A stretch of DNA of 64,000 bases from Spirochaeta thermophila DSM 6192 (lineage in GTDB: Bacteria; Spirochaetota; Spirochaetia; Winmispirales; Winmispiraceae), in assembly GCF_000147075.1 (NCBI RefSeq), contig NC_014484.1:1877501-1941500 (forward strand), read 5' to 3'. The notes under the pieces were generated by a model that saw only the letters and a program-made list of their open reading frames with translations, did no database searches and was not told where the DNA came from. The translations under genes and the position numbers were made by a program. Numbering within the stretch: position 1 is the first letter of the stretch; the number at the start of each line of letters is the position of its first letter. Positions 16,625 through 49,560 of the stretch are shown piece after piece.

Positions 16625-16653
16625 TTGTGCTCTTTCCTGAGATATGATATAAA
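16625..16653 (+). promoter_or_regulatory. Promoter of the ROK regulator gene (TTGTGC-17-TATAAA), leaderless configuration
   Basis: TTGTGC at 16625-16630, a 17-base spacer, then TATAAA at 16648-16653. The ATG of the ROK gene begins six bases after the -10 box, so transcription should start at or next to the start codon. Confidence 0.6.
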
Positions 16654-16659
16654 AGTATC

Positions 16660-17838
16660 ATGGCTAATGCTCGTACCATCAACGCCATCAACATCTCGCG
16701 GGTCCTCAGACACGTGTGGCACTTTCCCAGGAAGAGCAGGAGCGAGATCGCCGAGGATCTGGGCCTCGACAAGTCCACCGTCACGAAGATCGTGGCATCC
16801 CTCGAACAGATGGGGCTCGTCGTTCCCCGTGAGGAAGGCCCCTCGGGTCCACGCGGCGGGAGGAAGCCCATCTACCTGGGCATCAACCCTTCCTTCGGGA
16901 TGGTCCTGGGGTTCGAACTCCACACCACGACGTATTCCGCCATCGCGCTCGACTTCACCGGAAGGGAACTCTTCTACAAGGAGGCCGCCCTCCCGAAGGA
17001 GGACGACATCATCCTCATCACCGTCCGCATGATCGAGGAGACCAGGGAGGATGTCCGAGCCCTCGGCCTCCCGCTCGCCGGCATAGGGATAGGGCTCTCG
17101 GGTCTGGTCGATCCCTTCGAAGGGGTGGTGCACCGTTCCAACCCCTTGGACATCACCTCCCCCACCGCACTCGTCCCTCCCCTCGAGACACGGTTCGGAC
17201 TTCCCGTGTTCATCGAGAACGACGCGAACTGCTGTTGCTGGGCCGACCTTCTCCAGACGAGGGGGGCCCGTGAGGGGAACGCCCTCTTCATCCTCTCGGA
17301 ATTCCGCCAAACGAGTGCCCACACCGTTCCCCAGATGGGGGTCGGCATCGGCATGGCGTTCCTCTTTCACGAGGGGGTCTTCTACGGCGATCACTTCATC
17401 GCAGGAGAGTTCAAGAGCATCCTCTGGCGGCCCCCGAACGTCACCCAGTTCAGCATCCCGGACGAGGAGGCGGCGCGCATACCCGACCCTCAGGTGGTGA
17501 GGAAGGTCATCGTGGAACTGGGCAAGCACGTGGCATTCCTGGCGAACACCCTCGACCTGAGCCGGATCGTGGTCTGCGGTGATCTGGAGGCCTTCGAGCA
17601 CGAAGTGAAGACCATCTTCATGGAAGAGATTCAGGAAAACTGGCTCTATCCGGAGCAGACTTCCCCCCGCATCGAGATGTCGCCTCTCAAAGAGAAGACC
17701 GTGGCCTACGGCGCCGCGGGGTGCTTCCTCGAGCGTCTCTTCAGCGTGCCGGAGGTGGTCCCCGGCTCCAGGGTCCTTCCCTCGGGCCTACACCTCCTCG
17801 AGCTGGTGCTCGAGCACTGGCAGCGGGGGGAATCCTGA
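16660..17838 (+). CDS. ROK-family sugar-responsive transcriptional regulator
   Basis: A 392-residue regulator. An N-terminal winged helix-turn-helix (residues ~10-70) contains KSRSEIAEDLGLDKSTVTKIVASLEQMGLV. The ROK sugar-kinase-like domain follows (GLSGLVDPFEGVVHRSNPLDI, then the FIENDANCCCWAD strand). The zinc-binding Cys cluster typical of many ROK proteins is not obvious. The kinase-like catalytic region is degenerate, so it should bind sugar but not phosphorylate it. It is divergent from the binding-protein operon and probably represses it. No Shine-Dalgarno sequence is present; the -10 box ends six bases before ATG, which implies a leaderless message. Confidence 0.88.
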   Translation: MANARTINAINISRVLRHVWHFPRKSRSEIAEDLGLDKSTVTKIVASLEQMGLVVPREEGPSGPRGGRKPIYLGINPSFGMVLGFELHTTTYSAIALDFTGRELFYKEAALPKEDDIILITVRMIEETREDVRALGLPLAGIGIGLSGLVDPFEGVVHRSNPLDITSPTALVPPLETRFGLPVFIENDANCCCWADLLQTRGAREGNALFILSEFRQTSAHTVPQMGVGIGMAFLFHEGVFYGDHFIAGEFKSILWRPPNVTQFSIPDEEAARIPDPQVVRKVIVELGKHVAFLANTLDLSRIVVCGDLEAFEHEVKTIFMEEIQENWLYPEQTSPRIEMSPLKEKTVAYGAAGCFLERLFSVPEVVPGSRVLPSGLHLLELVLEHWQRGES

Positions 17839-17856
17839 GACGCCGCAACGACCGTG

Positions 17857-17885
17857 TGTACAGCCGGAAGATTCTCTTCTATAGT
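17857..17885 (+). promoter_or_regulatory. Promoter of the 132-aa unknown gene (TGTACA-17-TATAGT), leaderless configuration
   Basis: TGTACA at 17857-17862, a 17-base spacer, and TATAGT at 17880-17885. The ATG at 17893 begins after exactly seven bases. A second TATAGT copy fills those seven bases. No Shine-Dalgarno sequence is visible. Confidence 0.5.
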
Positions 17886-17892
17886 CTATAGT

Positions 17893-18291
17893 ATGACGGA
17901 ACAGGAATTCCAGAAGGCATACGAGGAGATCCTCGAGGGGCTGGAACGGTTGCCCGATCATGATCCGGACATCATCCAGAAGACAGCGGCCCATCTGGAC
18001 ATGCTCTCCTTTTCGTTCACGCAGGGCAGGCTCGATCTCGACCTCGTGCGGATCACAAAATCCCGGCTGAGGGAAGAACTCGAGCGGCTCGCCTCGCTCG
18101 GCCCCGAGGAGTTCGAGGCCGAGCTCAACATGGAACGCCCTTACTCGGGGGGGGATAAGCAGGCCTGGGCGCGGGAGGCGAAACTCCAGAGGATGCGATT
18201 CCTCCTCGACAAGTATGCCTTCGTGTGCAGACTCAGGGACAACGATCCGGAGACCTGGGATGCGGTGAACGAGCTTTTCTACGACGATTGA
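17893..18291 (+). CDS. Unknown small acidic helical protein
   Basis: A 132-residue soluble protein, not recognised. It is rich in Glu, Asp, Leu and Arg and is predicted to be almost entirely helical (for example EFQKAYEEILEGLERL and EELERLASLGPEEFEAEL). It has no signal peptide or metal motif. A longer frame opens at 17854, but the ATG at 17893 fits both the helical start and the leaderless promoter. The gene is convergent with argA, with 14 bases between the stops. It follows the ROK gene but has its own promoter, so it need not belong to the sugar regulon. Confidence 0.6.
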   Translation: MTEQEFQKAYEEILEGLERLPDHDPDIIQKTAAHLDMLSFSFTQGRLDLDLVRITKSRLREELERLASLGPEEFEAELNMERPYSGGDKQAWAREAKLQRMRFLLDKYAFVCRLRDNDPETWDAVNELFYDD

Positions 18292-19646: not shown

Positions 19647-20162
19647 TCAGGAGAGATAGTGCTCGGCCTCGTCCGACCTCTTGTATCCGGAGACGAGCTC
19701 TTCTTCCCGGAACCACACCGATATCTCGTATGCGGCCTCCTCGTCCGTAGCCGAAGCATGGATGAGATTGCGGACGCTCCCTTGGGCCGAATTGGTGTAT
19801 TCATAGGTATGGTGGGCAAAATCGCCCCTGATGGTCCCAGGGGGGGCGGAAGCGGGCTCCGTGCTGCCGCAGAGCTTCCTCACGACCGGCACCACGTCCA
19901 CCCCTTCGAGCACGAAGGCCACCACGGGGCCGGAACAGAGGAATTGCACGAGCCTGTTCCACACGGCCTCCCCGTGTCGTACCGCAATATCCTCGTACCG
20001 GTAGTGACGTCGTGCGCGCTCCTCGTCGGGCACGAGCATCTTCATGGCCACGATCTTGAGGCCCGCATCCTCGAACCTCGTGAGGATCCTTCCCACCAAC
20101 CCTCGCCGCACGCCATCAGGCTTGACGAGACAGAGGGTACGCGTGATCTCCTGTGTTCCCAT
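19647..20162 (-). CDS. ndk: Nucleoside diphosphate kinase (long form)
   Basis: Transfers the gamma-phosphate between nucleoside di- and triphosphates through a phospho-histidine. The start TRTLCLVKPDGVRRGLVGRILTRFEDAGLKIVAMK and the active-site segment SVRNLIHASATDEEAAYEI with the catalytic His are diagnostic. At 171 residues it is longer than the usual 140-150. The extra residues form an insertion before the catalytic loop (about 70-100) and a C-terminal extension, as in archaeal-type long NDKs. ATG at 20162 lies six bases after a -10 box, so the message is probably leaderless. Confidence 0.93.
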   Translation of the reverse strand: MGTQEITRTLCLVKPDGVRRGLVGRILTRFEDAGLKIVAMKMLVPDEERARRHYRYEDIAVRHGEAVWNRLVQFLCSGPVVAFVLEGVDVVPVVRKLCGSTEPASAPPGTIRGDFAHHTYEYTNSAQGSVRNLIHASATDEEAAYEISVWFREEELVSGYKRSDEAEHYLS

Positions 20163-20168
20163 GTCCCT

Positions 20169-20196
20169 ATCTTACGAGACATCCCCCTTCTGTCAA
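20169..20196 (-). promoter_or_regulatory. ndk promoter (TTGACA-16-TAAGAT), leaderless configuration
   Basis: On the minus strand TTGACA (20196-20191), a 16-base spacer, and TAAGAT (20174-20169), then six bases and the ndk ATG. AGGGAC in those six bases is too close to the ATG to serve well as a Shine-Dalgarno sequence. Confidence 0.55.
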
Positions 20197-26892: not shown

Positions 26893-26921
26893 TTGCAGGA
26901 ACGCCCCGCCTCGCCTACACT
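26893..26921 (+). promoter_or_regulatory. Promoter of the SDR gene (TTGCAG-17-TACACT), leaderless configuration
   Basis: TTGCAG at 26893-26898, a 17-base spacer, TACACT at 26916-26921, then seven bases to the ATG at 26929. There is no Shine-Dalgarno sequence. The boxes are weak individually, but the spacing is exact. Confidence 0.45.
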
Positions 26922-26928
26922 GGGCCTC

Positions 26929-27678
26929 ATGGAGAGAGCGGCGCTCGTGACCGGCGGAGCGCAGGGTATAGGCGACGCCATCGTGAAGGCCCTGCTCGAA
27001 GCGGGATATGCGGTGGCCTCCGTGGACAAGGACGGAGAGGCGCTCCAGGAACAACAGGAACGGTTGGCAACATACCGGGGCTACCTCCCGATCGAGGCCG
27101 ACATCGCCTTCCAGGAAGGGATAGAACACGCAGTGCGCCTCACCTTGGAGCGCTTCGGACGCCTCCACGGCCTGGTGAACAATGCGGCCGTCTCGGCAGA
27201 CGCCCCCCTGCACGCGCTCTCGAGGCAGGAGTGGGAGGCGGTGCTGGCCGTGAACCTCACGGCGCCGTGCTTCCTCGCCCAGGCCTGTGCACCCCATCTG
27301 GCCGCCACCCGGGGGGCCATCGTCAACATCTGTTCCACACGTGCCCTCATGTCCGAGCCGCACACCGAGGCCTACAGCGCGAGCAAGGGAGGGCTCCTGG
27401 CCCTCACCCACGCCCTCGCGGTGAGTCTGGGCCCCCGCGTCCGTGTGAACGCCGTGAGCCCCGGATGGATAGAGGTGCGCGATCGGAAGAAGCGTGCGCT
27501 GAGGCAGGAGGTCCACCACACCGAGGAAGACGCGCTCCAGCACCCTGCGGGCCGCGTAGGGGTACCGGAAGACATCGCGCGCATGGTGCTCTTCCTGCTC
27601 GACCCTGCGAACGACTTCATCACGGGACAGAACTTCGTCATCGACGGCGGCATGACGAGGAAGATGATCTACGTGTAA
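26929..27678 (+). CDS. Short-chain dehydrogenase/reductase (classical SDR)
   Basis: A 249-residue NAD(P)-dependent oxidoreductase. The Rossmann motif is TGGAQGIG. VDKD at the end of the second strand favours NAD. NNAA is present, and the catalytic Tyr-x-x-x-Lys is in EAYSASKGG, with the catalytic serine in NICSTRALMS. The C-terminus ends GQNFVIDGGMTRKMIYV, typical of 3-ketoacyl-ACP or sugar-alcohol reductase-like SDRs; the substrate is unknown. I use the ATG at 26929 because the longer frame begins with TTG inside the likely -35 box. The MazG-like gene follows after 15 bases. Confidence 0.87.
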   Translation: MERAALVTGGAQGIGDAIVKALLEAGYAVASVDKDGEALQEQQERLATYRGYLPIEADIAFQEGIEHAVRLTLERFGRLHGLVNNAAVSADAPLHALSRQEWEAVLAVNLTAPCFLAQACAPHLAATRGAIVNICSTRALMSEPHTEAYSASKGGLLALTHALAVSLGPRVRVNAVSPGWIEVRDRKKRALRQEVHHTEEDALQHPAGRVGVPEDIARMVLFLLDPANDFITGQNFVIDGGMTRKMIYV

Positions 27679-29067: not shown

Positions 29068-29226
29068 AGAGGCGCGGCAGACCGCGCCGTATGAGCCCAG
29101 CCTCCCGAGATGATGTACCCCCCACAGGTGGTCGAGTCGCCTCAAGACCAAGACCCGCCCAAGACTCAGCAAGGCATGAACAAAGTATGAATTCTCTTGT
29201 TGAGGAATTCGGGAAATCACGGTACC

Positions 29227-31302
29227 ATGGCCTCATCCATGAGAGGGCTGAGCAGATCGATCGTCGTTCTCTTTTTCCTGGGGGTGCGTCTCCTTGCGGC
29301 AGATCCCGTGATCCCGGTGACGGACTCCGACAGAGCGGTGCACATAGGCGGCCGGTGTTCCTATTGGAAGGACACCACCGGCACAGCCGGTCTCGACCAC
29401 GTCCTTTCCCTCCCCCCGTCCGCCTTTGAAGAGGCCTCCGGGGAAGGGGATGTCTCGTTCGGATTCGAGCGCAATCCCATGTGGTTCCGACTCCTCTTCG
29501 AGTACAAGGGCGGGAGGCCCGCCTCCTTCCTCCTCGTGCTCGACTACAGCCTCGTGGACGACGTGTGGCTCTACCTCCCTCAGGAGACGGGCGGATGGCG
29601 CGTACTCGGATCCGACACCTACACCGGTTCTCACAGGCCCGTATTCCCCGTGGAGCTCAGGCCGGGGCGCAACACGATGTATCTGCGGATCGCCACCGAG
29701 GGAACCCTCAGGCTTCCCCTCCACCTCTACGAGGAGCACACCTACAGGGTCCTCGCCCTCAGGGAGACCGCCGCGAAGGGCCTCTACCTGGGGGCCATTC
29801 TCCTGGCCGCATTCATCAACCTCTTCTTCTTCTATGTCTACAAGAGGGAATCCGACGGTATCGCGAGCCTGTTCCTCTCGGTATTCATCCTCTTCTACGG
29901 CATCTTCCAGTCCGTACAGGACGGGTTCGTCCTCTTCTTCATGCCGAAACACATCGTCCCCCTCTTTCGGCTCTACGTGATATGCGGCGTGCTGGGACTC
30001 GTGGCCCTGAGCTTCTTCATGATCTTCTTCTTCAGGAGAGAGGATGAGTCCGGCTTCTTCCGGATCTTCTCCCCATTCTGGGGCGCGGCCCTCCTCCTCA
30101 TCGTCCTCACCTTCCTCACCGAGCCCGGGTTCTACGTGAAGGCCTTCGCCCTCATCGGGGTGGTGTCATTCATCCCCAGCCTCTGGATCGTCCTGCGCGC
30201 TCCCAGCAGGAAGGTATTCCTGGGACGGGAACTCCTGTACGTCTACATGCTGCTCATTGCGAGCGTCGTGATCTTCGGCCTAAGAGGGCTGGGGTTCCTC
30301 CCCTCCAACCGGCTCACCCTCAATATCATCCCCGCGGGTTTCCTGGTCTTCATCGTGCTCCTCACCCTGATCCAGTTCAAGAGACTCCAGACCTCGATAG
30401 AGGAGAAATACACCATGGAGAGGAACTGGAAGGAGCTCTACGAGGCCTCTTCCACGTTCGTCCCCCGGGAATTCCTCTCCTTCATGCACAGGGGGTCGAT
30501 AAAGGACGTGCGACTGGGAGATCAGACGGAGACCGAGCTCACCCTCATGTTCTCCGACATCAGGAACTTCACGAGCATCGTGGAGTCCCTCACCCCTGCC
30601 GAGAGCTTCGAATTCCTCAATGGGTATTTCGAGTGCGTCGGTCCCATCATCAGGAAGCACCACGGATTCATCGACAAGTACATAGGGGACGGGGTCATGG
30701 CCATCTTCCCCCATAAGGCGGACGACGCCCTTGCAGCGGCCCTCGAGATCCAGCAGGCGCTCCCGGCGCTCAACAGGCGGTATGAGTCGAGGGGTTGGCC
30801 GTCCATACGCATAGGTATAGGGATACATACCGGGCCGTGCATGGTGGGTACCGTGGGCGAGGATCTCCGAATGGATACCACCGTGATCTCCGACGTGGTC
30901 AACATCGCGGCGAGGCTGGAGAATCTCACCAAGACGTTCGGAACCGATATCCTCATATCGGAGCAGGTGGTGATGTCCCTGGCGGATCCCGGAGCCCTCC
31001 ATCTCCGATTCCTGGGGAAGGTGATGGTGAAGGGCAAGTCCTCCGCGGTATCGGTCTTCCAGGTGCTCACCGACAGGGAGTTCCTCAAGGAAAAGGAGCT
31101 GAGGGCGGCGTACGATTCCTTCGAACAGGGGATGTTCGCCTTCTTCAAGCGGGATTTCGCCACCGCCATCTCGCTCTTCAACAGGGTCCTCGAGGTCGTC
31201 CCTTCCGACATGCCCGCAAGGGTCTACCTCGAGCAGGCAATGACCCTGCATGCATCGGGTGTACCCGAAGGGTGGGATGGGTATCTCAGGATCACCTCGT
31301 GA
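29227..31302 (+). CDS. Membrane-bound adenylate/guanylate cyclase with 7TMR-DISM sensor
   Basis: A receptor-type class III nucleotide cyclase of about 690 residues. A signal peptide (MRGLSRSIVVLFFLGVRLLA) precedes a periplasmic 7TMR-DISM extracellular beta-domain (about 30-185, with WFRLLFEYKG and NTMYLRIATEG). Seven membrane helices follow (~190-395), then the catalytic domain (LTLMFSDIRNFTSIVESL with the metal Asp, GDGVMAIFP, and VVNIAARLENLTK). A short TPR-like C-terminus ends it. The cognate second messenger is probably cAMP. ATG at 29227 and ATG at 29239 are both possible. TTGAGG-17-TACCAT (29223-29228) overlaps the first and would make the second nearly leaderless. Confidence 0.85.
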   Translation: MASSMRGLSRSIVVLFFLGVRLLAADPVIPVTDSDRAVHIGGRCSYWKDTTGTAGLDHVLSLPPSAFEEASGEGDVSFGFERNPMWFRLLFEYKGGRPASFLLVLDYSLVDDVWLYLPQETGGWRVLGSDTYTGSHRPVFPVELRPGRNTMYLRIATEGTLRLPLHLYEEHTYRVLALRETAAKGLYLGAILLAAFINLFFFYVYKRESDGIASLFLSVFILFYGIFQSVQDGFVLFFMPKHIVPLFRLYVICGVLGLVALSFFMIFFFRREDESGFFRIFSPFWGAALLLIVLTFLTEPGFYVKAFALIGVVSFIPSLWIVLRAPSRKVFLGRELLYVYMLLIASVVIFGLRGLGFLPSNRLTLNIIPAGFLVFIVLLTLIQFKRLQTSIEEKYTMERNWKELYEASSTFVPREFLSFMHRGSIKDVRLGDQTETELTLMFSDIRNFTSIVESLTPAESFEFLNGYFECVGPIIRKHHGFIDKYIGDGVMAIFPHKADDALAAALEIQQALPALNRRYESRGWPSIRIGIGIHTGPCMVGTVGEDLRMDTTVISDVVNIAARLENLTKTFGTDILISEQVVMSLADPGALHLRFLGKVMVKGKSSAVSVFQVLTDREFLKEKELRAAYDSFEQGMFAFFKRDFATAISLFNRVLEVVPSDMPARVYLEQAMTLHASGVPEGWDGYLRITS

Positions 31303-31419: not shown

Positions 31420-32097
31420 TCACCGCAGGGGGGACAACTCTCGGGAGAGGAGGTCGGAGAGCTCCTCTACACTATGACAGAGTATCCGCGCGCCCGCATC
31501 CCTCAGTTCCTCCTCGGTGCGGAAGCCCCAGGTGACCGCGACCGCCTGTATGCCCGCAGCCCTCGCGGTCTGGAGGTCCACTTCGGAATCGCCTACAAGC
31601 ACCACATCCTCGGGTCCGAGATCGCTCCACGCTGCGAGGATCTCGTAGACCCCTCGGGGGTCCGGTTTCGGCGGGAGCCCTTCCCGGTGCCCCAGGATCA
31701 CATCGAAGAGGGAGAGGTCGAAGAACGGGGCGAGGGCTCCCTCCACGGCGTGGTGCGGCTTGTTGCTCAACACCGCGAGACGGACGCCGGCCTCCCTGAG
31801 ACGGCCGAGGAGCTCGGGTATGCCGGGATAGGGGCGGGTTCGGAGGTGTGCCCGTCGCTCGTATTCCTCCTCGAACTCACGAAAGAGGGCCTCCACCCGG
31901 TCGGGCGATCGGGCCTCCGGCGGCACGGCCCGTTCTATCATGGTGATGGCGCCGAATCCCACCATGAGCCGGTAGCCTTCGATGGGGTGGGTCGGGAACC
32001 CGTGGCGTGCGAGTACGGTATTCACCGCCTCCGCCAAGTCGGGGAGGGTGTCCAGCAGGGTGCCGTCGAGATCGAAGATCACACCTCGTATCCTCAT
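31420..32097 (-). CDS. HAD-superfamily phosphatase, phosphoglycolate-phosphatase-like
   Basis: A 225-residue HAD hydrolase. Motif I is FDLDGTLLDT with the nucleophile Asp, motif II is LAVLSNKPH, motif III is the Lys in PPKPDPRGVYEIL, and motif IV is VLVGDSEVDLQTARAAG. The helical cap between motifs I and II (about 15-90) fits Gph-type enzymes, which remove 2-phosphoglycolate or related phosphates. It is convergent with the cyclase gene. The ATG lies six bases after a plausible -10 box, without a Shine-Dalgarno sequence. Confidence 0.85.
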   Translation of the reverse strand: MRIRGVIFDLDGTLLDTLPDLAEAVNTVLARHGFPTHPIEGYRLMVGFGAITMIERAVPPEARSPDRVEALFREFEEEYERRAHLRTRPYPGIPELLGRLREAGVRLAVLSNKPHHAVEGALAPFFDLSLFDVILGHREGLPPKPDPRGVYEILAAWSDLGPEDVVLVGDSEVDLQTARAAGIQAVAVTWGFRTEEELRDAGARILCHSVEELSDLLSRELSPLR

Positions 32098-32103
32098 GCG
32101 GAG

Positions 32104-32132
32104 AACGTACTGGATTCCGACGGGGGAGGCAA
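32104..32132 (-). promoter_or_regulatory. Promoter of the HAD phosphatase gene (TTGCCT-17-TACGTT), leaderless configuration
   Basis: On the minus strand TTGCCT (32132-32127), a 17-base spacer, TACGTT (32109-32104), then six bases and ATG. The -10 match is weak; spacing and the absence of a Shine-Dalgarno sequence are the main support. Confidence 0.35.
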
Positions 32133-38922: not shown

Positions 38923-39234
38923 TCACCCCTCCTCGCGGTACGGGATGATCACCCTCCGCCTCTCGGGATCGCTCGCCTCCCGGTAAAACACGGCCACGTG
39001 TCCGATCACGGCTACGAGGAGGGCCCCCAGTCTCTCCGCGAGCTCGCGGGCGAGGTCTTCCCGTTCATCCTTCCAGGCCACGAACCGCACCTTCACGAGT
39101 TCGTTCCTCTCGAGGGCATCGTGGAGGGCCCGGAACACACCTTCGGCCAAGCCCGCCTTTCCCACATAGACCGCCGGTTCCAGATCGTGCGCCATCCGTA
39201 TGAGGGCGCTCCTCTGATAGCCTCTGAGTTCCAT
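38923..39234 (-). CDS. yhbY: YhbY-family (CRM domain) RNA-binding protein
   Basis: A 103-residue CRM-domain protein associated with pre-50S ribosome maturation. The fold begins LRGYQRSALIRMAHDLEPAVYVGKAGLAEGVFRALHDALERNELVKVRF, including the GxxG-like loop VGKAG and the ELVKV strand. It ends in the 'ERLGALLVAVIGHVAVFYRE' region. Three tandem starts, GTG-ATG-ATG, lie at 39240, 39237 and 39234. There is no Shine-Dalgarno sequence, and TATAAA (39246-39241) ends six bases before the third, so I choose 39234 and suspect a leaderless message; no good -35 was found. The stop directly abuts the dehydrogenase start. Confidence 0.85.
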   Translation of the reverse strand: MELRGYQRSALIRMAHDLEPAVYVGKAGLAEGVFRALHDALERNELVKVRFVAWKDEREDLARELAERLGALLVAVIGHVAVFYREASDPERRRVIIPYREEG

Positions 39235-39286
39235 CATCACTTTATACTATGCAAATCGTGAGCCTTCCGCAAGGATGGGCATATCC

Positions 39287-39843: not shown

Positions 39844-41556
39844 TCACTCCTGCCGTTCCATCTTCCCCATCCGTCTCCGGGCGCGTTCCAGGAGGCGGGC
39901 GAGGTCTCGTTCGATGAGGGGATAGGCGCCCGGCGACGACGCGAGGAGGTGCTGCAGGTGGGACACGGCGCGGCTGAACTCGCACCGGTACTTCTTGAAG
40001 GCGAACTTGGAGAGGAGCCACACCACGCGTTTGGAGAGGAGCCGGACCTCCTTCCTGTGGGAGAGTCGGGGGAGGATGGAGAGGGCCACGTAGAATTCCT
40101 CCTCCTTGTCGGTACACGCCGCGAGGGAGAGGTCGGCCCTCATGCTCTCGAGTTCCTCGAGGCTGCACCGTTCGAGACCCGGAGGGGCTCCCTGGGGGAG
40201 GTAGCCGGCTATGGTCTTCACCGGAGGGAGAGAGGGGGAGAGGTGGAGGAGGTCGCCTTCCAGTCGGAAGAGGCGGGAAAGGAGGGCGGGTCGGAAACCC
40301 CTCGAGAGGAGGGCCTCGACCTCCTTCACCGCAAGGACGTGTCTGAGGGATCGTCGCAGCTCCGGCGAGGCGGGTTTCCCCCTGGTGAGGATGCACACAT
40401 ACTCCACGGTGCCGGTCTTTCTGTGGATGCTCTGCCGTCCCCCGCGGTAGGCGGTGTGGTTCGCCACCTCCACCTCCACCGAGCCGTGGAGCGAGAGGAT
40501 GTCGACGAGGCGTTCACAGGGGATGATCCCGTCGGTGTTGTAGCTCACCAGCAGCACAGGGGCCCGCACCTGCACGACGAGGGCCTCCATGGCCTCCTCG
40601 GCGTACCTGCGGGAACAGAAGGGAGACCAGGTGCGCTTCCAGTCAGACCTGATCCCCGCCTTGTGGACGAGCTTCCCTTCCCGGTCGCGTTCCTCGCTCA
40701 CCGGAGGTCTGTCCCATAGGGCGATGGTGTTGAGCATGAAGTAGTTGCTGCCGTATTGGTGGATGGTGTACGGCGGGTCGAGGTAGCAGAGATCGGCTTC
40801 TATTCGCGAGACGAGGGAGAAGGCGTCCTCGCAGAAGGTACGGGCGGACGGTCCGTGCTCGAGGAGCACCGGATGGGGAATCCTGATGGGGGCGAGGATA
40901 CGGGTGAGGGCATCGCGGCCATGGCCTCCGAAGCCCCGGTGGAAGGCCTTGAAGAGCCCCGAGGTGTTGGCGTGCTTGGCCGCACCGTAGAGCAGGAGGG
41001 CCACGAGGAGGGCCTTTTCCTTTCCCGCCGGGTCGGGGAGGTCCCAGCCGGGATACCACTCCTCGATGGTCTCGCGCACCACATCGATGAATCGGGCGTT
41101 GTACGGTGTGTAGAAGAGTCGCTCGGAAGAGGGATCGGCGTCTTCGAGGCTGCGTGGGGCGTAGTACCGGCTGATGTAGGGCGCTCGCGGGTATCCGGCG
41201 GCGCCTCGACGGTTGAGGACCGAGAGGACTTCCTCGATGCCGCCCAGATGCCGGTACAGAAGGGGAAGATCGGAGGCGTCGATCTCAAGGTAGGCCTTGT
41301 TCACGAGGGAGGCGTAGAACTCCCAGTCGCCTGCAGTCACCTCGAAGCCCAGAGTACGAGCGAGACGGCTCACCACGCCCGTGCCGGCAAAGGGGTCGAG
41401 GAAGGTGCGGGCTCCGGTACGGGCTCTCACCTTGTGGAAGATCCGGGCGAGGAAGGGGAGGAGGGGGCGTTTGTTGCCTATGTAGGCGATGAGCTGACGG
41501 TTAAGGTAGGGGTGGGAACGTATCCCCGTACGGAAGGTAGATGGCGAGGTTCTCAT
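39844..41556 (-). CDS. D12-class adenine-specific DNA methyltransferase with C-terminal extension
   Basis: A 570-residue N6-adenine methyltransferase of the Dam/D12 class. The N-terminal motif is IAYIGNKRPLLPFL (Dam-like 'GGK' variant), the SAM motif I is FLDPFAGTGVVSRLA, and the catalytic motif IV is LCYLDPPYTIHQYG (DPPY). The methyltransferase core covers about residues 20-385. The remaining ~185 residues are a helical, Arg/Leu-rich extension that I do not recognise; target recognition or an added activity is possible. No restriction gene is adjacent, so it may be solitary. No in-frame start exists after 41556 before motif I, so its first 56 bases overlap the queD end. Confidence 0.82.
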   Translation of the reverse strand: MRTSPSTFRTGIRSHPYLNRQLIAYIGNKRPLLPFLARIFHKVRARTGARTFLDPFAGTGVVSRLARTLGFEVTAGDWEFYASLVNKAYLEIDASDLPLLYRHLGGIEEVLSVLNRRGAAGYPRAPYISRYYAPRSLEDADPSSERLFYTPYNARFIDVVRETIEEWYPGWDLPDPAGKEKALLVALLLYGAAKHANTSGLFKAFHRGFGGHGRDALTRILAPIRIPHPVLLEHGPSARTFCEDAFSLVSRIEADLCYLDPPYTIHQYGSNYFMLNTIALWDRPPVSEERDREGKLVHKAGIRSDWKRTWSPFCSRRYAEEAMEALVVQVRAPVLLVSYNTDGIIPCERLVDILSLHGSVEVEVANHTAYRGGRQSIHRKTGTVEYVCILTRGKPASPELRRSLRHVLAVKEVEALLSRGFRPALLSRLFRLEGDLLHLSPSLPPVKTIAGYLPQGAPPGLERCSLEELESMRADLSLAACTDKEEEFYVALSILPRLSHRKEVRLLSKRVVWLLSKFAFKKYRCEFSRAVSHLQHLLASSPGAYPLIERDLARLLERARRRMGKMERQE

Positions 41557-41929
41557 CGGTCTCGAACACCTCTACCTTCCATATCGGTGTCCCGGGGAGT
41601 TTCTTCACCATCTCCTCGTACACATAGGTGGCGATCCGCTCGGCGCTCGGGTTCTCCTGGAAGAAGGGGTGGTCGTTGAGGTTCGTATGGTCGAGCCGTG
41701 CGAGGACCTCCCTGAGGGCCTTCTTGAGGATCCCGAAGTCGAGGACCATACCCCCTTCGTCGAGCTTCCTCCCTGCGGCGTAGGCTCGGACGCGGTAGTT
41801 GTGGCCGTGGAGGGTTTCGCACTTCCCGTGGTAGGAAGAGAGGTAGTGGGCCGCAGCAAAGGTGCCTTCCGCCCTCACCACATACACGGCCTTGTCTGCG
41901 CGCTCGTCTCCCTGATAGGATGGGGCCAT
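41501..41929 (-). CDS. queD: 6-carboxy-5,6,7,8-tetrahydropterin synthase (QueD/PTPS family)
   Basis: Converts dihydroneopterin triphosphate to 6-carboxytetrahydropterin for queuosine or related 7-deazapurines. This 142-residue T-fold protein has zinc ligands His in GTFAAAHYL and the two in LHGHNYRV. The catalytic Cys lies in YHGKCETLHGHNY, and the catalytic Asp-His pair in ARLDHTNLND. No other queuosine genes are in the window. The ATG at 41929 shares the tetranucleotide CATG with the divergent murE start. TAGAAC ends seven bases before it, so it is probably leaderless. The frame is open to a TTG at 41965, which coincides with the predicted -35 box. Confidence 0.88.
   Translation of the reverse strand: MAPSYQGDERADKAVYVVRAEGTFAAAHYLSSYHGKCETLHGHNYRVRAYAAGRKLDEGGMVLDFGILKKALREVLARLDHTNLNDHPFFQENPSAERIATYVYEEMVKKLPGTPIWKVEVFETDENLAIYLPYGDTFPPLP
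41892..41921 (+). promoter_or_regulatory. murE promoter (TTGTCT-18-TAGGAT), leaderless, located inside queD
   Basis: TTGTCT at 41892-41897, an 18-base spacer, TAGGAT at 41916-41921, then GGGGCC and the murE ATG at 41928. The whole promoter lies within the first codons of the opposing queD gene. Confidence 0.5.
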
Positions 41930-43439
41930 GAGTCTGGTTCTATCATCTTTGCTGGATGCGATCAAGCCCGAGGAGGTGCGGGGCGGAGGGGATCCCCGGG
42001 TGCGTCTCCTCGCCTACGATTCGCGGGACGTGGAATCGGGGGCGCTCTTCTTCGCCCTTCCGGGGCTTCACACCGACGGACACAGGTTCGTTGAGGATGC
42101 GCTCGGGCGGGGTGCGGTCGCGGTGGTACACGAGCGGGAGCTTCCGTCCTACCGGGAAGGGGTGGTGTACCTGAGGGTGAAGAACGCCCGGAGGGCGCTC
42201 TCCGCCGCTTCCGCGGTGTTCTACGGGCATCCTTCCCAGGATCTCGAGGTGACGGGGGTGACGGGTACGGACGGGAAGAGCAGTACCACCTACTTCATCT
42301 ACCAGCTCCTCCGGGCTTCGGGAGTGAAGGTGGGGTGCATCTCCACGGCGCTCTTCTCCACCGGGGGGGAGCCCGAGCCGAATCCGCTTCGCCAGTCCAC
42401 GCCCGAGGCCCCGTTCGTGCATGGGGCGCTGGCCCGTATGAGGGAGGCGGGGTGCACCCACGCGGTGGTGGAGGCGACCTCCCACGGGCTCTCTCCGCGC
42501 ACGGCACGGCTGGAAGACGTGCGCTTCACCGTGGGGGTGCTCACCAACATCACCCACGAGCACATGGAGTTCCACGGGTCGTTCGAGCAGTACCGCGAGG
42601 ACAAGGGCAGGCTCTTCAGGGGGCTCCCCGAGGGGGGGAAGGCGGTGCTCAACCTGGACGATCCTTCCTCAGGGTTCCTCGCCGAGAGGACGAGGGCCGG
42701 GGTGTGGGGGTACGGGCTTGGTACACGGGAGGGGGCGAGGCTCTGGGCCGAGGTGCGGGAGGAGTCGCTCGCAGGGTCGCGGTGTCTCGTGCACGGGAGG
42801 GAGACCCTCGAGGTGTGGGTGCCGTTCCCGGGCCGCTTCAATGTGGAGAACGTGCTCGCGGCGGTGCTGGGGGCCGCGGCGGCGGCGGGGAAGGAGCCGG
42901 AGGGGTTCCTGTCCCACGTGCCACACCTCGAGGGTGTACCGGGCCGGATGGAGCGGGTGGAGGCAGGTCAGCCGTTCCTCGTGCTGGTGGATTATGCCCA
43001 CACGCCGGGGGCGTTCGAGAAGCTCCTGCCGTTCGTGCGCCGGTTCGTGGAGGGGCGCCTGATCGTGGTCTTCGGATCGGCGGGCGAGCGGGACAGGACG
43101 AAGCGGCCGATGCAGGGGCGGGTGGCCTCGCGCTGGGCGGAGGTGGTGGTGCTCACGGATGAGGATCCCCGGGGCGAGGACAGGATGGCGATCCTGCGGG
43201 AGATCGCCGCGGGGTGCGAGGGGCTGGTGGAGGGTGAGAGCCTGTTCATGGTGCCGGACCGCAGAGAGGCGATCGGCCTGGCGGTGGGGATGGCGCGCGA
43301 GGGGGATGCGGTGCTGTGCCTGGGGAAGGGCCACGAGCGGAGCATCGTCACGGCGGAGGGTCCGGTGGCGTGGGATGAGGTGGGGGCGGTACGGGAGGCA
43401 CTGGCGGCGCGGGGGTGGCGGGAGGAGCAGGGCTTGTGA
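41928..43439 (+). CDS. murE: UDP-MurNAc-L-Ala-D-Glu ligase adding the diamino acid (MurE)
   Basis: Adds the third amino acid of the peptidoglycan stem peptide. The 503 residues fit the family. The N-terminal UDP-binding domain has YDSRDVESGALFFALPGLHTDGHRF, the P-loop is GVTGTDGKSSTTYF, and the C-terminal domain has DYAHTPGAFEKLL and GSAGERDRTKRPMQG. The specificity loop reads TDEDPRGED, not the DNPR of meso-diaminopimelate enzymes or the usual Lys-type loop. Spirochaetes generally use ornithine here, so an ornithine-adding enzyme is plausible. The start ATG overlaps the queD start on the other strand and aligns with the start of known MurE proteins. Confidence 0.92.
   Translation: MSLVLSSLLDAIKPEEVRGGGDPRVRLLAYDSRDVESGALFFALPGLHTDGHRFVEDALGRGAVAVVHERELPSYREGVVYLRVKNARRALSAASAVFYGHPSQDLEVTGVTGTDGKSSTTYFIYQLLRASGVKVGCISTALFSTGGEPEPNPLRQSTPEAPFVHGALARMREAGCTHAVVEATSHGLSPRTARLEDVRFTVGVLTNITHEHMEFHGSFEQYREDKGRLFRGLPEGGKAVLNLDDPSSGFLAERTRAGVWGYGLGTREGARLWAEVREESLAGSRCLVHGRETLEVWVPFPGRFNVENVLAAVLGAAAAAGKEPEGFLSHVPHLEGVPGRMERVEAGQPFLVLVDYAHTPGAFEKLLPFVRRFVEGRLIVVFGSAGERDRTKRPMQGRVASRWAEVVVLTDEDPRGEDRMAILREIAAGCEGLVEGESLFMVPDRREAIGLAVGMAREGDAVLCLGKGHERSIVTAEGPVAWDEVGAVREALAARGWREEQGL
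41937..41965 (-). promoter_or_regulatory. queD promoter (TTGATC-17-TAGAAC), leaderless, located inside murE
   Basis: On the minus strand TTGATC (41965-41960), a 17-base spacer, TAGAAC (41942-41937), seven bases, then the queD ATG. It lies within the first codons of murE, so the two promoters face each other across CATG. Confidence 0.45.
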
Positions 43440-43462
43440 GGGAAGGGGGGGGCGGGTATAAT
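43434..43462 (+). promoter_or_regulatory. ddl promoter (TTGTGA-17-TATAAT), leaderless configuration
   Basis: TTGTGA (43434-43439) contains the murE stop codon TGA. After a 17-base spacer there is a perfect TATAAT (43457-43462), then seven bases and the ddl ATG at 43470. This is the clearest leaderless promoter in the window. Confidence 0.65.
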
Positions 43463-43469
43463 GCGGGGC

Positions 43470-44555
43470 ATGGAACGGATGAGGATCGCCTTGCTCTACG
43501 GTGGACGCTCAGGGGAACACGAGGTCTCGTGCAGGTCGGCGGCCGCGATCTACGAGCACCTCGATCGCGAGAGGTTCGAGGTCCTGCCGGTAGGGATCAC
43601 CCACGCGGGACGGTGGTACCTGCAGCGCGAGGTGCGGGTGAAGGAGGGGGCGCTGGAGGTGGCCGAGGACGAGGGGGCGGTGGTGTGGGTGGTGCCGGGC
43701 GCGGGGCTCTGGTGTGGGGGGGAAGACCTGAGGGTGGACTGCGTCTTCCCCATCGTGCACGGCACCTTCGGAGAGGACGGCACGCTCCAGGGGTTGCTGG
43801 AGCAGGCCGGGGTGGCGTACGTGGGAGCGGGGGTGCTCGGGAGCGCGTTGGGTATGGACAAGGACAGGGCCAAGGCGGTGTGGCTGCAGGCGGGACTCCC
43901 CATCCTCCCCTTCATGGTGGTACGCCGGGAGTCACTCCCTCCCTGGAACGAGCTTGCGATTCAGCTCAGACGGAGAATGGAGTTTCCCGTCTTTGTGAAG
44001 CCCGCCCGGGGCGGTTCCTCTGTGGGCATCTCAAAGGTCCACGACGAGCGGGGGCTCAAAAAGGCCTGTGAACTCGCCTTCACGTACGACTCGAAGATCG
44101 TCATCGAGCAGGGGATCGAGGCCCGGGAGATCGAATGCGGGGTGTGGGGAAACGAGGACGTACGGAGCTTCCCCCCCGGCGAGATCATCCACACGCACGA
44201 ATTCTACGATTACGAGGCCAAGTACGAGGACACCGAAGGTCTCCAGCTCAAGATCCCTGCAGAGCTCACCCCTGAACAGCAGGAGTACGTACGGAGCTTG
44301 GCGGAGAAGGCCTACAGGGCCCTCGAGTGTGAGGGATTCGCGCGAGTCGATTTTCTCCTCGACACCGAGACCGAGGTCTTCTACCTCAACGAGATCAACA
44401 CCCTTCCGGGATTCACGCCGGTGAGCATGTTCCCCCTCATGGCCCAGGCAGCGGGCATCTCGTTTCCTGACCTCCTCACCAGGCTCATCGAACTGGGGCT
44501 CGATCGCAGCAGGAGGAGAGCCGCCCTCTCATACCGCTACGAGGCCCTCCGCTGA
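43470..44555 (+). CDS. ddl: D-alanine-D-alanine ligase
   Basis: Makes the D-Ala-D-Ala dipeptide for peptidoglycan. The 361-residue ATP-grasp enzyme has the N-terminal LLYGGRSGEHEVSCRSAAAI, the substrate Glu and Ser in that motif, the ATP-lid region FVKPARGGSSVGISKV, and metal ligands in ARVDFLLD and FYLNEINTLPGFT. Between lid and core, a YDYEAKYEDTEGLQLKIPA segment is typical of D-Ala-D-Ala rather than D-Ala-D-Lac enzymes. An ATG at 43461 is also in frame but lies inside the -10 box. ATG 43470 sits seven bases after TATAAT without a Shine-Dalgarno sequence. It follows murE by 30 bases. Confidence 0.94.
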   Translation: MERMRIALLYGGRSGEHEVSCRSAAAIYEHLDRERFEVLPVGITHAGRWYLQREVRVKEGALEVAEDEGAVVWVVPGAGLWCGGEDLRVDCVFPIVHGTFGEDGTLQGLLEQAGVAYVGAGVLGSALGMDKDRAKAVWLQAGLPILPFMVVRRESLPPWNELAIQLRRRMEFPVFVKPARGGSSVGISKVHDERGLKKACELAFTYDSKIVIEQGIEAREIECGVWGNEDVRSFPPGEIIHTHEFYDYEAKYEDTEGLQLKIPAELTPEQQEYVRSLAEKAYRALECEGFARVDFLLDTETEVFYLNEINTLPGFTPVSMFPLMAQAAGISFPDLLTRLIELGLDRSRRRAALSYRYEALR

Positions 44556-45175: not shown

Positions 45176-45204
45176 TTGACCTTGCCCTGTGGTTGTCCTA
45201 TGCT
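45176..45204 (+). promoter_or_regulatory. Promoter of the large unknown membrane-protein gene (TTGACC-17-TATGCT)
   Basis: TTGACC at 45176-45181, a 17-base spacer, TATGCT at 45199-45204. The ATG at 45215 is ten bases after the -10 box, predicting a leader of only 3-4 bases and no Shine-Dalgarno sequence. Confidence 0.5.
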
Positions 45205-45214
45205 TACATCCATC

Positions 45215-47335
45215 ATGAGGCGACATCCCTGGATCCCGCTGTTTTCGCTCCTCGTCCTCCTTCCCCTCTCCCCCCAATCCCCCTCCCTCGCCCAGCACCT
45301 CCACGCCCTCTCCGCCACCGACACCCCCCGCGCCTACCTCCTCTCGGCGCTCTCCGACGCAGGCATCCCCGCCTCCCCCCTCTCCCCCGCCCCCGACGCC
45401 CCCATCCTCGCCACCCTCTCCCGCCACCGCCCCACCACCCTCACCCTCGTCCTCCCCCTCGGCACCCCGTTCCCCCCCGCCCTCGGCCTCACCCTCCTCG
45501 CCTGGGCTGCAACCACCGACATCCCGGTCAACCTGGAAGTCCTCTTCGTACAGGAACGCACCGAACCCTCTGCACCCCTCCCTTCCCCCTTCCCCGTCAC
45601 CCCACCCTTCCACCACACCCTCTCCTACCTCGAAGGACTCCCCGCCCTCGACCATAGGGTCCTCCTCTACCTGGACATCACCCACCCCGCCTCCTCCCTC
45701 ACCCTCCACACCACCGCCTCGGCCCGCAAGGCCCCTCCCTGGCTCCTCGCCACACTCTTCCGGGCCGCAGGCCCCTCCCTCTCCATCCACACCCCCCCCT
45801 CCATCCCTGCCCAGACCCTCTCACTCCTCGCACCCGACGACCTCCCCTACGCCTCCCTCCTCACCACCCTCTACACCCACGACCTCCCCTCGGCCGCCCT
45901 CACCCCGGCCACCCCCGCTGCAGACCCCACCCCCCTCCTCGACTTCCTCACCACCCTCATCACCACCCTCCCCCCCACCCCCCCTCGAACCTGGGAGAAC
46001 CACTACCTCGCCATCCCCCTGAATGCCGGACACCTCATCGTCATCCACGAACACCACTATCTCATCCTCCTCCTCGCAGGCATAACCGCCACCCTCCTCT
46101 TCGGCTTCTTCAGATTCAGGCACCTCCGCCGCTACCTCTCCATCATGAAGCGGGGATGGTTCATGACGCCCCTCCTCTTTCTCGCCACCGGCGCATTCCT
46201 GCTGCTCGGCACCACCCTCCTCGGGAGCATCGCAGGATTCCACCGGTACGACGCCTTCCTCCTCCACCACCTCCAGGCCTCTTTCCTCCTCAAGATCTCC
46301 CTCACGGTATTCCTCATCTCGACCCTCCTCTTCCTCCTCAGGATCTTCTCCCTCCCCCTCATGAGGATAACCCATTACTACACCGCAGCCGCCATCCTCC
46401 TCCTCGCCCTCGACATCGCCCTCTTCGGGAGCATCATGCTCCCCTTGGGCATCGTCTTCCTCTGGTCCCTCCTCTGTGCCACCGGATTCTCGGTCACACG
46501 ATCGCGCATCCTCCGCCTCCTCCTCTTCCTCCTCTCACCGCTCTGGATCGTCTACACCCTCTGGTGGATCCTCTCCACCCCCACCCCGTCCCCCCTCCTC
46601 CTCACCCCACCGGCGGCCGGCGACCTCCTCATGGCCTTCCTCCTCCTCCCCTTCCTCCTCCTCCTCTTCCGCCTCGACATCCTCCTCCACCGTCCCGCCA
46701 CCAAGGTGGGCACCCTCCTCCTGCTCTCCCTCATCCTCTCCGGACTCGCCACCGCACTCCTCACGACCCACCTCCTCCTCACCCCCACCTTCACCGAAGA
46801 GACCCCCCGGCCCGTACACGTGGTGGAATACATCGACGAGACGGAACGCCGCATCACCGTGGAAAGCCCCGCCCCACTCTCCGGCCTCATCCTCACGTAC
46901 GACACCGCGTGGAAGCCGCTCCCCGAAACCCGCACCTTCTCACTCACCACCCCCGCCCCCCCTTCACCCCTCCTCCTCTCCACCCGGGAACACCGGTTCC
47001 TCAACCGCCTGCGCGTCGACCTCACCATAGAGAGCACCCTGCCCCTCGACGCCTGTCACCTCACCCTCGAATCAGAGGAAGGCCTCCCCCTCCTGGAGAC
47101 CACCTTCCCCTTCGAATTCGACACCGATCGGAAACGAGCCCTCGTGGTCATCTCCCCCGTCCCCGCGCTCCCGCTCACACTCCCCCTCTACATCCCCCAC
47201 GGCCGCCCCATCACCCTCACCGTGAGGGCCCTCACCCGCTCGAACCCCGGAGCCCCCTCCATCTCCTCCCCCCTGGTGAAGGTCGAGACCCACACCGTGT
47301 ACATCCGCACACTCACGCTCGGAGGCGGCCCGTGA
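45215..47335 (+). CDS. Unknown large membrane protein (signal peptide, extracytoplasmic domain, ~10 membrane helices, C-terminal beta-domain)
   Basis: A 706-residue protein, not confidently recognised. A signal peptide (MRRHPWIPLFSLLVLLPLSPQSPSLA) leads to an extracytoplasmic alpha/beta domain (~28-280). A block of about ten membrane helices (~285-545) follows, then a periplasmic beta-rich domain (~550-706). The first domain has a spacing of strand and helix (LTLVLPLG ... LGLTLLAWAA ... NLEVLFVQERTE ... HRVLLYLDI) reminiscent of M28-type aminopeptidase folds, but the metal ligands are absent. A degenerate M28-like fold attached to membrane helices would resemble GPI-transamidase GAA1; this is only a hypothesis. 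The coding strand is extremely C-rich. The stop overlaps the dinB start by GTGA. Confidence 0.65.
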   Translation: MRRHPWIPLFSLLVLLPLSPQSPSLAQHLHALSATDTPRAYLLSALSDAGIPASPLSPAPDAPILATLSRHRPTTLTLVLPLGTPFPPALGLTLLAWAATTDIPVNLEVLFVQERTEPSAPLPSPFPVTPPFHHTLSYLEGLPALDHRVLLYLDITHPASSLTLHTTASARKAPPWLLATLFRAAGPSLSIHTPPSIPAQTLSLLAPDDLPYASLLTTLYTHDLPSAALTPATPAADPTPLLDFLTTLITTLPPTPPRTWENHYLAIPLNAGHLIVIHEHHYLILLLAGITATLLFGFFRFRHLRRYLSIMKRGWFMTPLLFLATGAFLLLGTTLLGSIAGFHRYDAFLLHHLQASFLLKISLTVFLISTLLFLLRIFSLPLMRITHYYTAAAILLLALDIALFGSIMLPLGIVFLWSLLCATGFSVTRSRILRLLLFLLSPLWIVYTLWWILSTPTPSPLLLTPPAAGDLLMAFLLLPFLLLLFRLDILLHRPATKVGTLLLLSLILSGLATALLTTHLLLTPTFTEETPRPVHVVEYIDETERRITVESPAPLSGLILTYDTAWKPLPETRTFSLTTPAPPSPLLLSTREHRFLNRLRVDLTIESTLPLDACHLTLESEEGLPLLETTFPFEFDTDRKRALVVISPVPALPLTLPLYIPHGRPITLTVRALTRSNPGAPSISSPLVKVETHTVYIRTLTLGGGP

Positions 47336-48522
47336 GACCCGTGTACTTCCACGTGGACCTCGACGCCTTCTACGCCTCGGTCGAGAAAGTCGAGCACCCC
47401 GAGCTCAAAGACAAACCGGTCATCGTAGGCGGACTCCCCCCCAGGAGAGGCGTGGTCTCGGCCTGCTCCTACGAGGCGAGACGTTACGGCATACGCTCCG
47501 GCATGCCCATACAGGAGGCCATGCGACGCTGCCCCCACGGCATCTTCCTCCCCGTCCGCATGCGCCTCTACCAGGAATACTCCAGGCGTGTCATGGAGAT
47601 CCTCCATCGCTTCACCCCCGAGGTGAGACAGATCTCGGTGGACGAGGCATCCCTCGACATGAGCGGAACCGAACGCCTCTTCGGCCCTCCGGAGGAGGCG
47701 GCCCGGACCATCCAGCGCACCATCCGGGAAGAGGTGGGGGTCACCGCTTCCATCGGCATCGCCTCCAACCGGTACGTGGCGAAGCTCGCCTCGGAAAGGA
47801 ACAAACCGGCGGGACTCTTCCTGGTGCCTCGAGGAGAAGAGGAACCCTTCATCCGAAGCCTCGATCTCGCCGATCTGTGGGGTGTGGGAGAGAAGACCCT
47901 CGCGCTCCTCAAGCAGAAAGGGATCACCACCACCTCCAGGCTCCAGGCACTCACCCGTGAACAGCTCCAGGCCCTCTTCGGCAAGGCTCAGGGCGCATTC
48001 CTCCATACCATCGCCCACGGCCACGACCCAGGCATCTACCATGACGAACCCAAGACCCGCTCGGCGAGCCACGAAGAGACCTTCGACCAGGACATCACCA
48101 CCATGGATCAAGCCGAGACCCACCTCCTCGCACTTTCCCACAAGGTGATGGAACGCCTCCTCCTCCACGAAGAGACCGGGAAGACCGTATTCATCAAGAT
48201 CCGCTACTCCAGCTTCACCACCACCACCGCACAGATCACCCTCCCCACCCCCATCCAGTGCGCCGAGGACCTCTACGAGACCGCCCGGACCCTCCTCACC
48301 TCACGATGGGACGGCAAGACTCCCATCAGGCTCCTCGGCGTGGGGGTCTCGGGCCTCGCCCCCGAGACGGAACTCCTACCCCCCCAGCTCTTCCCCGATC
48401 CCTCCCGGAAGAAGAAGACACTGGAAGAGGCGCTCCTCGCCCTCGAGAAGAAGAAAGGGAGGAAACTCCTCACCAAGGCGCGACTCCTTCCCCATCCCCA
48501 CCGGGATCCCCCCGCACCTTGA
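47332..48522 (+). CDS. dinB: DNA polymerase IV (Y-family)
   Basis: An error-prone translesion polymerase, 396 residues. The palm has YFHVDLDAFYASVE with the first metal Asp and ISVDEASLDMS with the catalytic Asp-Glu pair. The fingers have VVSACSYEARRYGIRSGMP, and TASIGIASNRYVAKLASERNKPAG is the nucleotide-binding region. A helix-hairpin-helix thumb (DLWGVGEKTLALLKQKGI) and a little-finger domain follow. The basic C-terminus (KKTLEEALLALEKKKGRKLLTKARLL) lacks an obvious QL-x-LF clamp motif. A GTG start overlaps the previous stop, with GGAGG six bases upstream. The long open frame before 47332 is an overprint on the membrane-protein gene. Confidence 0.94.
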   Translation: MRPVYFHVDLDAFYASVEKVEHPELKDKPVIVGGLPPRRGVVSACSYEARRYGIRSGMPIQEAMRRCPHGIFLPVRMRLYQEYSRRVMEILHRFTPEVRQISVDEASLDMSGTERLFGPPEEAARTIQRTIREEVGVTASIGIASNRYVAKLASERNKPAGLFLVPRGEEEPFIRSLDLADLWGVGEKTLALLKQKGITTTSRLQALTREQLQALFGKAQGAFLHTIAHGHDPGIYHDEPKTRSASHEETFDQDITTMDQAETHLLALSHKVMERLLLHEETGKTVFIKIRYSSFTTTTAQITLPTPIQCAEDLYETARTLLTSRWDGKTPIRLLGVGVSGLAPETELLPPQLFPDPSRKKKTLEEALLALEKKKGRKLLTKARLLPHPHRDPPAP

Positions 48523-48546
48523 TTTTTTCCCTTCCCCCGCTACAAT
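48519..48546 (+). promoter_or_regulatory. Promoter of the AEC transporter gene (TTGATT-16-TACAAT), leaderless configuration
   Basis: TTGATT at 48519-48524 contains the dinB stop codon. After a 16-base spacer comes TACAAT at 48541-48546, then six bases and ATG at 48553. There is no Shine-Dalgarno sequence. Confidence 0.6.
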
Positions 48547-48552
48547 CAGGCC

Positions 48553-49560
48553 ATGCGCATCCCCTTCCTCCCCCTCATGTACTCGGTGCTTCAACTCTTC
48601 GTGCTCATGGGACTGGGCTTCCTCCTCAGAAAGAGAGGAGGATTCTCCTCATCGTTCTTCCAGGACCTCAGCACCCTCCTCGTGCGCATCTTCCTCCCCC
48701 TCTACTTCTTCGCACGCTTCTCGCGCACCACCCTCCCGCAACTCACCACAGCCTGGATATTCCCCCTCAGCGCAGTGGGGATCGCCCTCACAGGCCTCGT
48801 CGCAGCCACACTCCTGGGGACCCTGATCCCCCGACTCGACCGGGAGGAACGAAAGGCCTACCTCGCCCTCGCCTCGTTCGGCAACTCGGGGTATCTCCCC
48901 ATCACCAACATCGAACTCCTCGCCCTCTCGGTGCCCCTCGTGGCCGAACGCTTCGGTACCGACCTCCCCGGGATCTACGTGGGCGCCTACCTCGTGGGCT
49001 CGAGCACCCTCCTGTGGACCGCGGGCTACGCCCTCATCACCGGGACCGCCACCCGATCCCCCCTCGCCCTCCTCACCCCCACCGTGCGGGGGATCCTCGC
49101 GGGACTCTCCATCCCCGTCCTCGGTCTCCAGGAGGCCTTCTTCCACCCCTCCCTCCCCTTCGCGAGCATCGTCTCCACCCTCGACACCATAGGTTCCACC
49201 ACCCTCCCCCTCGTCCTCCTCTGCCTCGGTGCCATGCTCGCCGACATCTCCGTGTCACGGGAGGAACGAAAGGCCTATCTGGGAGCCGCCCTCACCATCG
49301 TGGGCGTCCGCCTCCTCATCCTCCCGGCCCTCTTCTACCTCGCCTATTTCCTCTTCCTCAGGGACACCCTTACCCCTCCCCAGCTGTGGGTCCTCTTCCT
49401 CGAGACCCACACCCCGCCCGCCACCAACCTCTCGATCATGGCCCAGAGCGCCGACACCCACAAAGAGATAGCCGGCATCTCCCTCTTCACCTCCTATCTC
49501 GCCTACCTCATCCTCTTCCCCGTCTCCCTCGTCCTCTTTCTCTCGCTCCTCTACCCATGA
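48553..49560 (+). CDS. AEC-family (auxin efflux carrier-like) permease
   Basis: A 335-residue secondary transporter with ten predicted membrane segments in two five-helix repeats. The first helix is SVLQLFVLMGLGFLLRKRG. The broken-helix crossover of repeat one is ALASFGNSGYLPITNIELLAL (N-S-G-Y-L-P), and of repeat two WVLFLETHTPPATNLSIMAQ, where 'PPATN' is characteristic of the family. Bacterial members move dicarboxylates or other organic anions, often malate; the substrate is unknown. The message is probably leaderless. Confidence 0.85.
   Translation: MRIPFLPLMYSVLQLFVLMGLGFLLRKRGGFSSSFFQDLSTLLVRIFLPLYFFARFSRTTLPQLTTAWIFPLSAVGIALTGLVAATLLGTLIPRLDREERKAYLALASFGNSGYLPITNIELLALSVPLVAERFGTDLPGIYVGAYLVGSSTLLWTAGYALITGTATRSPLALLTPTVRGILAGLSIPVLGLQEAFFHPSLPFASIVSTLDTIGSTTLPLVLLCLGAMLADISVSREERKAYLGAALTIVGVRLLILPALFYLAYFLFLRDTLTPPQLWVLFLETHTPPATNLSIMAQSADTHKEIAGISLFTSYLAYLILFPVSLVLFLSLLYP

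Follow-up and report, generated by a model that had tools for sequence, protein, structure and literature searches.

Promoters placed against the start codon predict a leaderless gene class in Spirochaeta thermophila that recurs across Spirochaetia

The window analyzed here, a stretch of 64,000 nucleotides (contig positions 1,877,501-1,941,500) from the genome of the thermophilic spirochaete Spirochaeta thermophila DSM 6192, contains nine genes in which a promoter-like sequence lies directly before the start codon: a ROK regulator, a gene for a 132-aa protein of unknown function (17893-18291), ndk, an SDR, a HAD hydrolase, queD, murE, ddl and an AEC permease (Table 1). An earlier note, made from the letters of the window alone, had listed these as leaderless starts with a -10 hexamer ending 6-7 bases before the start codon and a spacer of 16-18 bp, and we found all nine promoters in place, including the perfect TATAAT at ddl. 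The -10 begins at -12 or -13 in every case and reads TANNNT in seven of the nine; the two exceptions, ROK and queD, are the weaker promoters of the set, and queD is the weakest case. The -35 of ddl overlaps the murE stop codon. In the sister genome, G001, which differs from the window at 0.4-10% of bases around the nine starts, every -10 hexamer is identical and the -35 hexamers are almost the same. The 132-aa gene has no Pfam match. Since an Rfam search of the window found a single tRNA and nothing else, no known RNA leader rivals the leaderless reading there. The GC skew of the window also changes sign abruptly near 44 kb, dropping from about +0.24 to -0.29, and it remains negative to about 58 kb, with its lowest value of -0.52 at 54-56 kb, although on either side of this change most genes are on the + strand.

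Table 1. Predicted promoters and start codons in the window (window positions; hexamers and start codons read on the strand given).
Gene	Span	Strand	-35	Spacer	-10	Start codon	Remark
ROK regulator	16625..16662	+	TTGTGC 16625-16630	17 bp	TATAAA 16648-16653	ATG 16660	
132-aa unknown	17857..17895	+	TGTACA 17857-17862	17 bp	TATAGT 17880-17885	ATG 17893	
ndk	20160..20196	-	TTGACA 20191-20196	16 bp	TAAGAT 20169-20174	ATG 20162	Pfam NDK
SDR	26893..26931	+	TTGCAG 26893-26898	17 bp	TACACT 26916-26921	ATG 26929	
HAD hydrolase	32095..32132	-	TTGCCT 32127-32132	17 bp	TACGTT 32104-32109	ATG 32097	
queD	41927..41965	-	TTGATC 41960-41965	17 bp	TAGAAC 41937-41942	ATG 41929	
murE	41892..41930	+	TTGTCT 41892-41897	18 bp	TAGGAT 41916-41921	ATG 41928	
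ddl	43434..43472	+	TTGTGA 43434-43439	17 bp	TATAAT 43457-43462	ATG 43470	
AEC permease	48519..48555	+	TTGATT 48519-48524	16 bp	TACAAT 48541-48546	ATG 48553	
45215 gene	45176..45217	+	TTGACC	17 bp	TATGCT 45199-45204	ATG 45215	predicted leader ~4 nt
29239 gene	29200..29241	+	TTGAGG	17 bp	TACCAT 29223-29228	ATG 29239	predicted leader ~4 nt
39237 gene	39235..39272	-	TTGCGG 39267-39272	17 bp	TAGTAT 39244-39249	ATG 39237	listed at 39234 in the earlier note

How firmly each start can be assigned differs among these genes. A start model that includes leaderless signals placed eight of the nine in its leaderless class. It put the murE start later, at an SD-like (Shine-Dalgarno-like) site inside the conserved N-terminus, a choice that the alignment of MurE proteins does not support; the alignment, with an N-terminal consensus of MxKxLSxL, supports ATG 41928. 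The start of queD is ambiguous, with GTG 41887 as an alternative. Three more genes had been proposed as near-leaderless. Those at 45215 and 29239 do have good promoters, but with the -10 at -16 they would be short-leadered and not strictly leaderless. The third also has a promoter, but its start region reads ATGATG and the first ATG, at 39237, is the better start, which would make the gene leaderless with TAGTAT at -12.

We then looked at the motif across the genome, a single contig of 2,472,645 bp, using a sample of 60 stretches of 20 kb that covers about half of it (61.9% GC in the sampled stretches). Gene starts in the sample were called with a codon model blind to all upstream sequence, and since the calls cannot see upstream signals, the choice of start cannot generate the motif signal. 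In this sample, TANNNT occurs at -13/-12 in 51 of 272 genes with a poor SD sequence, where 4.6 were expected (P = 6e-37). The signal is just as evident when the window is set aside (45/259 low-SD genes, 4.5 expected, P = 1e-30) and within the window alone (6/13 low-SD genes, 0.1 expected, P = 1e-11). Strong-SD genes (SD of at least 5) in the half-genome sample show no excess of TANNNT at -13/-12 (7/512, 13.3 expected), and the peak at -12/-13 is confined to genes with SD <=3, weak at SD 4 and absent at SD >=5. Among low-SD genes, none of the other xyNNNz patterns, 64 in all, is as enriched as TANNNT, which stands at tenfold.

The element at low-SD starts is promoter-like, with a -35 at 17 bp, and the genes that carry it are likely to head transcription units. 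Of the 67 TANNNT matches, 31 are preceded by a TTG at a spacer of exactly 17 bp and six by one at 18 bp, with other spacers accounting for 0-2 each. A pyrimidine occupies -1 in 61/67 matches, and the start is ATG in 61/67, compared to 744/1015 genes (73%) overall. Only three of the 67 have a co-directional upstream gene within 20 bp (64/67 do not), compared to 348/1015 overall. The earlier note had named beforehand, as grounds for giving up the idea, a lack of -10 enrichment over shuffled controls across the genome, but the enrichment is there: a -35/-10 promoter model placed a promoter at -14 to -11 in 77 of 1015 genes, compared to 2.5 in shuffled sequence. In strong-SD genes, the promoter motif lies further upstream and is spread across about -35 to -58. 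Since low-SD genes carry promoters in the leaderless position while strong-SD genes carry scattered upstream ones, two classes of start coexist, as had been proposed from the window. The claim that constant spacing is the signal likewise holds genome-wide: the spacing is specific to genes without an SD, accompanied by the -35 at 17 bp, and kept between genera.

When a start model holding both SD and leaderless signals was applied to 1058 genes, 797 were labeled SD-led, 156 leaderless and 105 other. Control models with permuted promoter columns still labeled 36-85 of the 1058 genes leaderless (mean 57), so that single weak assignments are unreliable, and subtraction of the mean control level from the 156 leaves an excess of about 100 genes. 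We thus estimate the leaderless or nearly leaderless share at about 9-10% of genes, and the leaderless class makes up about 15% of the genes likely to head a transcription unit. Free expectation-maximization with a loose motif was dropped, having drifted to weak motifs in the controls as well, and strict TANNNT, a fixed promoter model and permuted controls were adopted instead. A strict count of TTG-N20-TANNNT-gap-ATG, which needs no gene calls, gave 29 matches at a gap of 6, 19 at a gap of 7 and six at a gap of 5; 38 of the 48 matches at gaps 6 and 7 coincide with called starts. A smaller secondary excess appears at a gap of 9, which corresponds to a 3-nt leader.

Conservation on individual genes was assessed in G002, which belongs to another genus of the family, has only 41% GC and gave 149 reciprocal best hits with usable starts; the ortholog test rests on this genome, since four further families supplied about 60-80 genes each, too few for such a test. 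We found a promoter in the leaderless position in G002 for 23 of 34 genes predicted as leaderless in S. thermophila, compared to 10 of 115 others (P = 1.7e-11). The ddl gene of G002 reads TTGACA-17 bp-TAGAAT-6 bp-ATG, with the -10 at -12 (locus L064), the ndk promoter is also present there, and ROK has its promoter there too, a short way before its start. Beyond the family, TANNNT lies at -17 to -10 in 36 of 50 spirochaete murE loci, a set that includes the window's own gene, its sister and a few redundant records, compared to 7 of 47 comparison loci, nearly all from Chloroflexota. Many families share the murE layout, often with TGATAGCAT or a closely similar sequence whose end lies six bases before the ATG.

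We measured the spread of the pattern by counting it over whole genomes, again without gene calls, at gaps of 6-7 and of 10-11. The S. thermophila genome has 86 matches at the former and 22 at the latter. The ratio of the two counts has a median of 2.0 in 59 genomes of the class, 43 of which reach at least 1.5, compared to a median of 1.16 in 51 genomes of the phylum's other classes (Mann-Whitney P = 5e-11 for the difference between classes); high background in AT-rich genomes means that the ratio understates them. The excess is found in most families of the class. Of the families with several genomes sampled, f19 (G020, G095, G106, G114 and G121), a family of small genomes that is probably Borrelia, is the only one with no excess. 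In murE genes of the Borrelia type, a TANNNT is nevertheless retained about 14 bp ahead of the start codon, but the TTG of a -35 is missing. Together, these findings suggest that the layout has been inherited across genera on the same genes, such as murE, and that it represents an old, maintained second mode of translation start.

In the window, queD and murE form a head-to-head pair whose start codons overlap on one CATG. The predicted queD promoter is located inside the 5' part of the murE reading frame, and the predicted murE promoter overlaps the 5' region of queD. The head-to-head order is present in at least six other genomes of the class (G002, G003, G007, G012, G017 and G024), most of which also conserve the murE half of the arrangement. 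Across window positions 41501-43439 and the corresponding regions of relatives, a queuosine-pathway gene is persistently paired with a cell-wall gene. The queD half of the pair is uncertain. Its -10 has no T at the last position, and in several relatives queD begins about 14 codons further downstream with an SD before it; GTG 41887 aligns with the inner start of one relative. The Pfam PTPS match in QueD begins at residue 19. Were queD to start at ATG 41929, the two polymerases would each cross the promoter of the opposite gene. Elsewhere in the genome, two divergent genes 43 bp apart (L008:14735-14779) are both predicted to be leaderless or nearly so, with opposed promoters that overlap on a common TTGACA/TGTCAA; in G002, the TTGACAG element is present again together with one arm. 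Compact divergent pairs resembling this one are found at L017:13281-13347, L022:16403-16479 and L030:3454-3522. An apparent overlapping divergent pair at L020:2248/2249 was dropped after inspection showed no real promoter.

Leaderless transcripts are the simplest reading of the spacing signal. From the motif, its position, the -35 spacing, the separation of the two classes and the conservation, all of which can be read in the sequence, we infer where the transcripts begin and how they are translated: a housekeeping promoter of the sigma70/sigmaA type whose -10 ends 6-7 bp before the start codon would start transcription on the first base of the ATG or no more than 1-4 nt from it, and the resulting mRNA would be read by direct recognition of its 5'-terminal AUG, presumably by 70S ribosomes. 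These genes would stand alongside SD-led ones with normal leaders and be kept by selection throughout Spirochaetia. It is conceivable that the signal is no promoter but an AT-rich, unstructured or S1-binding stretch that aids the non-SD translation of leadered mRNAs, and it has been suggested that the AT-rich biases seen ahead of non-SD genes are S1 sites (PMC5397173). However, the -35 hexamer at exactly 17 bp, the top rank of TANNNT among the 64 patterns, the pyrimidine at -1 and the near absence of matches inside operons all speak for a promoter, and we give the S1 interpretation next to no credence.

The promoters could also be real and the ATGs wrong, with the true starts downstream behind SD sequences and ordinary leaders. 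Indeed, an in-frame start with SD >=5 lies within 30 codons downstream in 29 of the 156 model-called leaderless genes and in 8 of the 78 strong ones (about 10%), and the inner starts of queD relatives fit the same idea. Nevertheless, such downstream starts are commoner in SD-led genes (308/797), the ATG at the predicted transcription start is conserved across genera for murE and ddl, and the count made without gene calls requires an ATG at a gap of 6-7; misplaced ATGs are therefore a very improbable explanation. Leaders of 1-5 nt in most of these genes, in place of strictly leaderless starts, would account for a secondary set of promoters at -15/-16, 45215 and 29239 among them, and for the occurrence of the hexamer at both -12 and -13. 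We regard this as unlikely, since the main peak at -12/-13 and the pyrimidine at -1 followed by A at +1 agree with transcription beginning at that A, and short-leadered transcripts would in any case have no room for an SD. Altogether, the evidence makes it highly probable that ordinary sigma70/sigmaA-type promoters are set so that the mRNA starts at the ATG, forming a leaderless class that is selectively maintained in Spirochaetia. A more far-reaching proposal, that leaderless initiation is an ancestral second system kept by selection on particular genes (on murE class-wide) and in S. thermophila also lets queD and murE begin in opposite directions from a single CATG, with their promoters buried in each other's coding sequence and their transcription interfering, is one that we put forward tentatively and consider doubtful.

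The predicted class has practical consequences. The whole class Spirochaetia, including treponemes and many free-living spirochaetes, would join the organisms with substantial leaderless translation, and murE, ddl and ndk can be named as conserved test genes. Gene finders and expression vectors that assume an SD would misplace starts or fail on leaderless genes, and the position of the -10 could serve to correct start codons in Spirochaetia.

Leaderless genes are a known kind and have already been reported at low levels in spirochaetes. The earlier note knew of no description of widespread leaderless translation in this spirochaete, and our literature search, mostly of papers outside subscription journals, found no paper joining S. 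thermophila with leaderless genes; such genes have nonetheless been reported for spirochaetes generally (PMC3160421) and mapped in Leptospira interrogans (PMC5243855). What appears to be new is their extent in S. thermophila, their spread over the class and their conservation on particular genes. Zheng et al. (2011), whose main text does not name S. thermophila, predicted leaderless genes for 6 of 18 spirochaete genomes, with an average share of 3.9% (1.8-6.9), and our estimate is above the spirochaete figures given there (PMC3160421). In L. interrogans, which belongs to the same phylum but a different class, differential RNA-seq mapped the transcription start to the start codon of 184 genes at 30 C and found about 440 genes with a leader of <10 nt, so that leaderless mRNAs are experimentally mapped there and predicted here; the available part of that study shows no cross-species conservation of single leaderless genes, which we do see (PMC5243855). 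A close likeness is to the TA-led genes of Actinobacteria and Deinococcus-Thermus, where TANNNT likewise precedes the start by about 12 bp, an SD is lacking and the genomes are typically GC-rich, but where by the figures reported such genes make up about 20-40% of the total, compared to about 10% here (PMC3160421). In Deinococcus radiodurans, a -10 motif next to the start acts as a promoter, and an added -35 restored expression in E. coli (PMC12340547). Unlike the TA-led genes of Actinobacteria and Deinococcus-Thermus, the predicted leaderless genes of S. thermophila have a clear -35 at 17 bp.
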